This document shows positions 3,435 through 49,006 of a DNA stretch of 64,000 nt, piece by piece (positions within the stretch are counted from its first letter, which is position 1; every line of letters starts with the position of its first letter). Source of the DNA: Armatimonadota bacterium (GTDB lineage: Bacteria > Armatimonadota > Fimbriimonadia > Fimbriimonadales > Fimbriimonadaceae); NCBI GenBank assembly GCA_022563855.1, contig JADFMN010000005.1, forward strand, positions 62,001 through 126,000, read 5' to 3'. The position numbers were made by a program, and so were the translations under genes. A model generated the notes under the pieces. That model worked only from the letters and a program-made list of their open reading frames with translations, was not told the origin of the DNA and did not search any database.

Positions 3435-3473
3435 AGGACTGATCTTACCGAGCCCGAGGCCGCAGCTTCGTAG

Positions 3474-3616
3474 CACGGGCTTCCAGCCCGTGAGTGGCTG
3501 GGGCATCTTGCCCCAGGTTCGGCGCTTATGGGTCACGGCCAAGATGGCCGTGCTACCACGGGCGGGACGCCCGTGCCACTAAGACGCCCGTGGGCACTGG
3601 ACGCCCGTGGCAGTAA
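3474..3616. repeat. Cluster of REP-like short hairpins
   Basis: Four perfect inverted repeats with 8-bp arms and 3-nt loops: 3474-3492 (CACGGGCT arm), 3498-3516 (CTGGGGCA), 3534-3552 (CACGGCCA) and 3557-3575 (CACGGGCG). Two further GACGCCCGTG half-sites follow. The tetranucleotide GTAG directly precedes the first hairpin, and its complement CTAC precedes the fourth. A truncated related piece lies at 4298-4318. They resemble the repeats around the RAYT transposase near 48.3-49.0 kb. They lie between the divergent starts of the sulfatase and HEAT genes. Confidence 0.7.
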
Positions 3617-11827: not shown

Positions 11828-11880
11828 CGACTGCAAACTGCCCACTGCCCACTGCCAACTGCCAACTGCCAACTGCCAAC
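11828..11880. repeat. AACTGCC heptamer tract
   Basis: Near-perfect heptamers (AACTGCC/CACTGCC) run up to the stop codon of metG-tail copy A at 11880. Similar tracts occur at 6386-6410, 55253-55281 and 55722-55745. 11307-11464 and 11678-11827 hold no gene I can support; the latter includes GTCGTATTAGTCGTAT and CCCCGAACC-type short repeats. Confidence 0.7.
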
Positions 11881-11921
11881 TAGTGAACGCTCGTGCCTTC
11901 CGGCGCTTCGTGCTCCGGCTC
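11880..11921 (-). other. metG 3'-end copy A
   Basis: Read on the minus strand, this encodes EPEHEAPEGTSVH plus TAG, identical in protein to the end of intact metG at 16505-16546. Five bases differ, all at third codon positions. No other part of metG is attached. It lies 121 bp before napA, in the same orientation as metG. Confidence 0.85.
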
Positions 11922-48272: not shown

Positions 48273-48433
48273 GGGTGCCACGGGTTGTCTCGCCCGGGTG
48301 CCGCGAGTTGTCTCGCTCGGGTGCCACGGGTTGTCTCGCCCGGGTGCCACGGGTTGTCTCGCCCGGGTGCCACGGGTTGTCTCGCCCGGGTGCCACGGGT
48401 TGTCTCGCCCGGGTGCCACGGGTTGTCTCGCAA
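48273..48433. repeat. Tandem array of seven 23-bp REP units
   Basis: Seven contiguous 23-bp units start at 48273, 48296, 48319, 48342, 48365, 48388 and 48411. Each begins GGGTGCCACGGG and ends TCTCGCCC; unit 2 carries several changes. The last unit runs into CGCAACCCGTGCTAC, which forms a hairpin with its CACGGGTT. There are no spacers, so it is not CRISPR. It lies just downstream of the RAYT gene. Confidence 0.95.
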
Positions 48434-48465
48434 CCCGTGCTACACGCTTCCGCCCGTTCACAAAA

Positions 48466-48948
48466 CTACAACTGAGTCCAGAACTTCTCCGGCCACCCAA
48501 CACTGGACCACCGCCAATCTTCTGCTCTCAGAACAAGCTCCGCTCGGACGGGGTTCTCGTGGATATAGTCGGTTTTCTCACTGAACTCTTCGTCCGAATA
48601 AAGGTTTCGGTCGTATCCTCCACCTGCCTGCCAAAACCGAGGAATCTCGATTCCGCAGGCGCGCAAGAACTTCATTTGGCGGTACGCGAACGTCCGTTTG
48701 AGCAGATGGAGGTACTGCGCGATCGTCGCGTCCTCGCTCGCCGGCCGAACGATCAGGTGAACGTGGTTCAGCATCACGACCCAGTAGTACAGGTCGACCG
48801 CCATCTTCGAGTGGACGTACTCAAGCCTGGCGACGAACTCGTCTCTCACCTCTGGGGAGCCCAGAAGGTTTCGTCTCTCGTAACACGAGAACGTCAAGAA
48901 CCTAGAATTGTAGACTCCTTCGTATCTTCTTAGCTTCTTCCTTTGCAT
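48466..48948 (-). CDS. REP-associated tyrosine transposase (RAYT)
   Basis: 160 residues of the Y1/HUH transposase family. The HUH motif is NHVHL (His62, His64). The catalytic Tyr is probably Tyr89 in LLKRTFAYRQ. The family ending is YIHENPVRAELVLRAEDWRWSS. RAYTs cut and move REP hairpins preceded by GTAG. The gene is bracketed by inverted REP-like sequences (array at 48273-48433 and hairpin at 48969-48998). The ATG at 48948 is chosen; the frame open to 48999 is translated repeat. Confidence 0.9.
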   Translation of the reverse strand: MQRKKLRRYEGVYNSRFLTFSCYERRNLLGSPEVRDEFVARLEYVHSKMAVDLYYWVVMLNHVHLIVRPASEDATIAQYLHLLKRTFAYRQMKFLRACGIEIPRFWQAGGGYDRNLYSDEEFSEKTDYIHENPVRAELVLRAEDWRWSSVGWPEKFWTQL

Positions 48949-48968
48949 GCGTGAGATTGTGGCTTGCG

Positions 48969-48998
48969 CACGGGTTGCAAGACAACCCGTGGCACCCA
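48969..48998. repeat. REP hairpin upstream of the RAYT gene
   Basis: CACGGGTTG, loop CAAGA, CAACCCGTG, then GCACCCA. It is an inverted partner of the array on the other side of the gene. Confidence 0.85.
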
Positions 48999-49006
48999 TT
49001 TAGCGA

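Follow-up and report, generated by a model that had tools for sequence, protein, structure and literature searches.

TnpAREP enzymes, the products of REP-associated tyrosine transposase (RAYT) genes, act on folded single-stranded REPs and need the tetranucleotide beside the hairpin to varying degrees (PMC8266576). The residues of E. coli TnpAREP that contact GTAG, including Arg104, are described in PMC6006769, and for Marinomonas TnpAREP a change of the guide from GTAG to GTGG is reported to have shifted cleavage to CC (PMC8266576). RAYT subclasses 2.6 and 3 are described as being without GT[AG]G (Quentin 2018, PMC6006769), and both GTGG heads and Stenotrophomonas REPs containing GGGTGCC have already been published. 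Tandem REP arrays have likewise been published, and tandem REPs beside a RAYT gene are known from E. coli, where the RAYT is flanked by BIME-2.

Here we analyzed a RAYT locus in a 64,000-nucleotide stretch of Armatimonadota DNA (the window), together with its relatives in the same order and in other phyla. The gene, at 48466-48948, belongs to a known type of domesticated bacterial transposase and lies between its own small hairpin repeats; beside one of these repeats is a 23-bp tandem array (Table 1).

Table 1. Positions in the window of the RAYT gene, its flanking repeats, the adjacent array and the GTAG-headed cluster
Feature	Position	Strand	Remarks
Six tandem 23-bp half-REP units, without right arm	48273-48410	plus	GGGTGC head + left arm CACGGGTTG + loop TCTCG + CCC
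Seven-unit 23-bp array, exact spacing	48273-48433		TRF score 297, 95% match
Unit 2 of array	48296-48318	plus	3 substitutions
Unit 7 of array	48411-48433	plus	In register; continues into right arm, part of complete REP
Head GGGTGC of the 3' hairpin	48411-48416	plus	
Complete REP hairpin 3' of RAYT	48417-48439	plus	CACGGGTTG-TCTCG-CAACCCGTG
CTAC, inner foot of the 3' hairpin	48440-48443		GTAG on minus strand
RAYT gene	48466-48948	minus	Probable start 48948
Complete REP hairpin 5' of RAYT	48969-48991	minus	Inverted relative to the 3' hairpin
Head GGGTGC of the 5' hairpin	48992-48997	minus-strand reading	
Cluster of GTAG-headed and related short hairpins	3470-3612	both	Different REP family

The RAYT gene and its flanking hairpins

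The open reading frame as called (48466-48999, minus strand) extends through the upstream hairpin. Its first 17 codons cross that hairpin, and alignments with most close relatives begin only at about residue 14-19, so the ATG at 48948 is the likely start. The protein scores 26.9 bits against Pfam Y1_Tnp, above the gathering threshold, and 91.1 bits against NCBIfam NF047646, "REP-associated tyrosine transposase" (cut-off 80). The motifs NHVH, WQ and YIHENP (HUH plus catalytic Tyr, Y---NP) are intact; His61, His63, Tyr127, Asn131 and Pro132 are invariant across 11 aligned sequences, and a profile of the RAYT group retrieves E. coli TnpAREP (PDB 4er8) with an E value of 6.4e-10. The genome (3.18 Mb, 22 contigs) contains one close copy and nine more distant RAYT-like matches, and its next-best RAYT is 37% identical to the one studied here. 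Several near-identical genome copies would be expected of an IS200/IS605 element; the RAYT is single copy, which fits a REPtron gene and not an active insertion sequence. A plasmid search using the RAYT locus gave no match.

Both flanking hairpins have a 9-bp stem and a 5-nt loop, stand in inverted orientation and are 97% complementary across 30-nt arms. Folded as single-stranded DNA they reach -10.6 and -13.1 kcal/mol, and none of 200 shuffles was equally stable. Together with the profile matches, this bears out the preliminary description, which had placed a RAYT gene between inverted flanking hairpins.

That description also took GTAG (or CTAC) to border several hairpins, here and at 3.47 kb, in keeping with the GTAG-plus-hairpin rule of REP/RAYT systems. 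The outer foot, GGGTGC, is common to both RAYT hairpins, and the inner feet are unlike: GTAG (as CTAC) at the 3' hairpin, GCGC at the 5' hairpin. Dispersed copies elsewhere start at GGGTGCC, preceded by unrelated sequence. Because the inner feet differ and the dispersed copies start at GGGTGCC, GTAG is not the shared head of the two hairpins. We rejected it as a local head as well, as it is the inner foot of one hairpin only and GTAG heads are absent from all 54 YDRN-type relatives whose inverted repeats are strong. The canonical GT[AG]G tetranucleotide is thus absent from the 5' foot of these REPs, and the shared foot is GTGC; this weakens the label "canonical REP" and leaves "RAYT" intact, because subclasses 2.6 and 3 are also without GT[AG]G.

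The GTAG-headed hairpins at 3.47 kb are real. Their family has 17 genome matches at up to two mismatches, against none in the control, and also flanks a second RAYT of the same genome (C1:285562, locus L027), whose motif reads YYDHLIR, with the arginine kept. The cluster is apparently cognate to that second RAYT and separate from the element at 48466-48948, so the GTAG rule does not carry over to the locus studied here. Elsewhere in the window, at 11830-11881, TRF finds the heptamer ACTGCCA repeated seven times.

REP heads and RAYT classes among relatives

Relatives of the RAYT at E≤1e-10 occur in 35 of the 113 genomes of the order. From the order-set matches 30 loci were kept and 40 more were taken, the weakest being left out; a second (named) set consists of the best 80 of 352 loci from a scan of genome contigs, with Phycisphaerales, Fimbriimonadaceae, other Planctomycetota and Acidobacteriota foremost among these 80. 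For each RAYT we took the best inverted repeat between the upstream and downstream flanks. The near-duplicates L034, L081, L123 and L128 were dropped from the class and head counts and from the tree; repeats are identical within the pairs L028/L123 and L030/L128.

GTG[GC]C stands at the 5' end of both repeat copies in 38 of the 54 YDRN-type RAYTs with strong repeats, compared with 5 of 54 for the other end of the same repeats, which served as control. RAYTs were then classed by the residues aligned to the E. coli guide contacts, with the register against E. coli TnpAREP taken from motif reading and from the profile match to PDB 4er8: class A has D-x-N and has lost Arg104, and class B keeps Arg104. 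Among loci with strong inverted repeats, GTG[GC]C (GTGSC) heads are present on both copies in 51/72 of class A and 0/14 of class B; class C, which lies outside this comparison, has them in 8/21. The head counts leave aside loci scored as "weak IR" or "short" (class A 33/105, class B 5/19, class C 10/31). The Fisher test of head against class (51/72 versus 0/14) ignores relatedness. On a quick tree the motif-class label needs four changes and 2-4 independent head/class pairs remain, which is not significant, so the co-variation is suggestive only. As read from these alignments, it suggests that GTG[GC]C heads go with the RAYT group that is without the GTAG-contact arginine.

Across genomes, the head motif GGGTGSCAYKG was counted against a reversed control, giving summed totals of 939 versus 349 in RAYT-bearing genomes and 1295 versus 956 in the others. 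The excess per Mb is greater in the RAYT-bearing genomes (p=1.4e-6, and p=7e-5 after dropping the genome under study and families f3-f5), by a statistic that ignores relatedness. The only congener compared, G001 (68% complete), shows no excess (6 versus 5 in the control) and no RAYT match at E≤1e-20. In that assembly, examined for an empty site, the RNase J contig begins 325 bp upstream of the gene; a search for the neighboring GGDEF protein at E≤1e-40 gave no homologue.

The 23-bp array and its origin

The array keeps the exact 23-bp spacing, starting at 48273, that the preliminary description had reported for seven REP units; the nature of the unit is another matter. Units 1, 3, 4, 5 and 6 are identical (GGGTGCCACGGGTTGTCTCGCCC), and unit 7 ends ...TCTCGCAA and is followed by the right arm. 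This arm, CAACCCGTG, is missing from units 1-6 and appears only after unit 7. As judged by folding, units 1-6 behave like shuffled sequence (z -0.47, with 63 of 200 shuffles as good). The array is therefore a stutter of half a REP and not seven REPs: six of its seven units cannot form the hairpin, and the term "seven-unit REP array" gives the period correctly and the unit wrongly.

We then evaluated how far unit and hairpin have spread. With up to three mismatches allowed, a 20-mer of the unit matched the genome 17 times versus 0 for the reversed control, so these matches are not due to chance. Eight lie at the RAYT locus, two are near copies, six belong to a sister subfamily and one appears unrelated. 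The two near copies are of the complete hairpin, with both arms: C9 carries compensating changes and C13 a change in one arm. No half-unit was found in the genome away from the RAYT locus in this search. Exact matches to GGGTGCCACGG number 24, against 3 in the control; seven are at the RAYT locus and most of the rest are in the sister subfamily. With one mismatch allowed, a search across the 113 genomes of the order found the 23-bp unit in one alone, its own. Dispersal of the cognate REP amounts to two near copies, plus about a dozen in the sister subfamily; for Stenotrophomonas REPs 37-427 perfect copies are reported, far above these counts.

The sister REP subfamily, GGGTGCCACGGTCTG[AT]CCCGAAGGGCAGGCCGTGC, has about a dozen copies in the genome (L059-L062, L072-L076, L079), and no RAYT flanked by it was found among the examined loci of that genome. 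It may be an orphan, or it may also use the RAYT of 48466-48948. A covariance model of the REPs in this genome mixed the two subfamilies and gave a wrong structure of three base pairs; it was set aside.

Tandem arrays detected by TRF are more frequent in proximal than in distal RAYT flanks, with 26/148 proximal 450-bp flanks versus 6/119 distal in the order set (p=0.002), and 25/148 versus 18/275 in the second set, the best 80 of 352 loci (p=0.001). Many consist of whole-REP units (L038, L039, L040, L033 and L088), 41-53 bp long in L038 and 40 bp in L039. Whole-REP arrays of 68-90-bp units, with up to about seven copies, lie directly downstream of the RAYTs of L088, L094 and L096. The sister loci L033 and L034, from two genomes of one genus, differ in the downstream REP repeat: L033 has 2.5 copies of a 115-bp unit, and in L034 the repeat lies 115 bp nearer the gene, a natural copy-number difference of exactly one unit.

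Partial units, made of the head plus part or all of the left arm, were found by TRF and by eye on the head side of a complete REP at five further loci (L150, L142, L134, L029 and L175). With the window this makes six loci, from Armatimonadota, Planctomycetota and Acidobacteriota; at L150, in planctomycete PNC22, the period is also 23 bp. An automatic scan of 142 REPs, which excluded the near-duplicates L034, L123 and L128, gave prefix copies on the head side at six REPs and on the tail side at two, and suffix copies at zero and one; these numbers are small, and the scan missed the five cases found by eye. In PNC22, 28 of the 30 prefix copies examined (of 65 matches) continue into a full right arm; the other two are the half-unit at the RAYT side and a complete hairpin with one arm mismatch.

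From these results we regard it as probable that the locus is an ordinary REPtron with a variant head, that is, a single-copy RAYT between two inverted cognate REPs of GGGTGC plus a 9-bp hairpin, to which a local slippage array was added later. By analogy with TnpAREP of E. coli and Stenotrophomonas, the RAYT, as an HUH/Y1 single-strand DNA nuclease, would most likely bind the REP as a folded single strand, with the hairpin and the 5'-foot head as contacts, and would cut and join beside the REP. The GTGC foot would serve as its guide, in place of GTAG or GTGG, and seems to accompany a group of proteins in which the arginine corresponding to E. coli Arg104 has been lost. The array would then have arisen when head, left arm and loop were duplicated in tandem several times over, one of the breakpoints falling within the hairpin, most simply through replication slippage at a hairpin-forming sequence. 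Without a right arm, the six extra half-units should be poor RAYT substrates and might at most compete for pairing with the single right arm. The array is thus probably a copying accident rather than a burst of repeat transposition. Against this reading stand the GTAG at the inner foot of one hairpin and the occurrence of partial units in RAYT flanks, which could mean that the enzyme takes part.

Three other origins were considered. The first, put forward in the preliminary description, is that the RAYT multiplied its REPs next to their source gene and that the array captures REP transposition at one moment. The array does abut the RAYT's own REP, whole-REP arrays occur at the RAYTs of relatives (L038, L039), and the head-motif excess is greater in RAYT-bearing genomes; but units 1-6 are incomplete REPs that fold like shuffles, and the genome search found no half-unit outside the locus and only two near-identical copies of the complete hairpin. 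We consider this origin rather unlikely. Two outcomes had been named in advance as counting against it: confinement of the unit to this locus, which is what we find for the half-unit, and a copy number unrelated to RAYT presence, with which the head-motif excess disagrees.

Second, the RAYT itself could have made the half-units: cleavage or strand transfer, breaking within the loop, would have joined head plus left arm time and again to the head side of the REP. Such a process would agree with the head-side partial units at six loci in three phyla, and with PNC22, where the examined copies nearly all have the full right arm and a half-unit sits at the RAYT side. However, slippage yields identical geometry, known TnpAREP cleavage is described as falling outside the hairpin (PMC8266576), and the breakpoints vary among the six loci and have no dinucleotide in common, so that we also rejected a reading of the array junctions as cleavage dinucleotides. 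This origin appears improbable to us. Third, it is very improbable that the array is a repeat with a coding or regulatory role and no relation to REPs: two convergent genes enclose it and open frames traverse it, but 23 bp is not a multiple of three, so the frame changes with each unit, and the unit is a REP head and arm, with unit 7 continuous with the REP.

Beyond the REPtron with a slippage array, we raise tentatively a broader possibility. In a large group of RAYTs from Armatimonadota, Planctomycetota and Acidobacteriota (WQ..D-x-N, Arg104 lost), GTG[GC]C may have replaced GTAG as the REP guide. By the guide rule of Marinomonas TnpAREP, such enzymes would cut at other dinucleotides, CC/CA for GTGG and, as predicted, GC/GA for GTGC; their REP feet would be prone to head-side half-REP duplication, which would leave next to the gene an array of dead half-sites competing for one right arm.

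Comparison with described systems

The analysis of this locus serves chiefly to correct an assumption: a short array next to a RAYT need not record REP transposition, since its unit can turn out to be half a hairpin. Of more use is the comparison among relatives, in which GTG[GC]C heads occur with a RAYT group lacking the GTAG-contact residue. One genome holds both GTG[GC]C-type and GTAG-type RAYTs, and these findings would allow the guide-recognition model to be tested outside Proteobacteria. Neither half-REP arrays nor a GTGSC-headed class was found in the literature searched (PMC6006769, PMC3733652, PMC2817692, PMC3686654, PMC8266576, PMC3116915 and search listings), which includes few subscription papers.

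TIRYT elements, as described in PMC3733652, also combine a Y1 transposase with inverted repeats and occur in phyla such as Acidobacteria, but the repeat at this locus is a REP-like hairpin; the TIRYT motif given there, GGGGWSAS, is not matched here, where the sequence reads GGGTGCCA. The GTAG-tagged REP superfamily (Di Nocera 2013, PMC3733652) is described as having a short palindrome, an unpaired tag at one foot and families in tandem clusters, as here. The tag at this locus is, however, GGGTGC/GTGSC, and the true GTAG family of the same genome flanks another RAYT. The Stenotrophomonas SM1/SM2 REPs (Nunvar 2013, PMC3686654; listed as GGTGGGTGCC...) share GGGTGCC before the palindrome, but their GT(A/G)G-type head is described as lying further out, and host and RAYT lineage are different.

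The closest systems are the RAYT/TnpAREP REPtrons (Nunvar 2010, PMC2817692; Quentin 2018, PMC6006769; PDB 4er8). The locus departs from them in having a GTGC head instead of GT[AG]G, a replaced residue at the Arg104 position, an array of half REPs instead of whole ones and very few dispersed copies. It agrees with the published REPtrons in its HUH motif and tyrosine, in Y---NP, in a protein length of about 160 amino acids, in the single-copy gene and in the two inverted REPs between which that gene lies.
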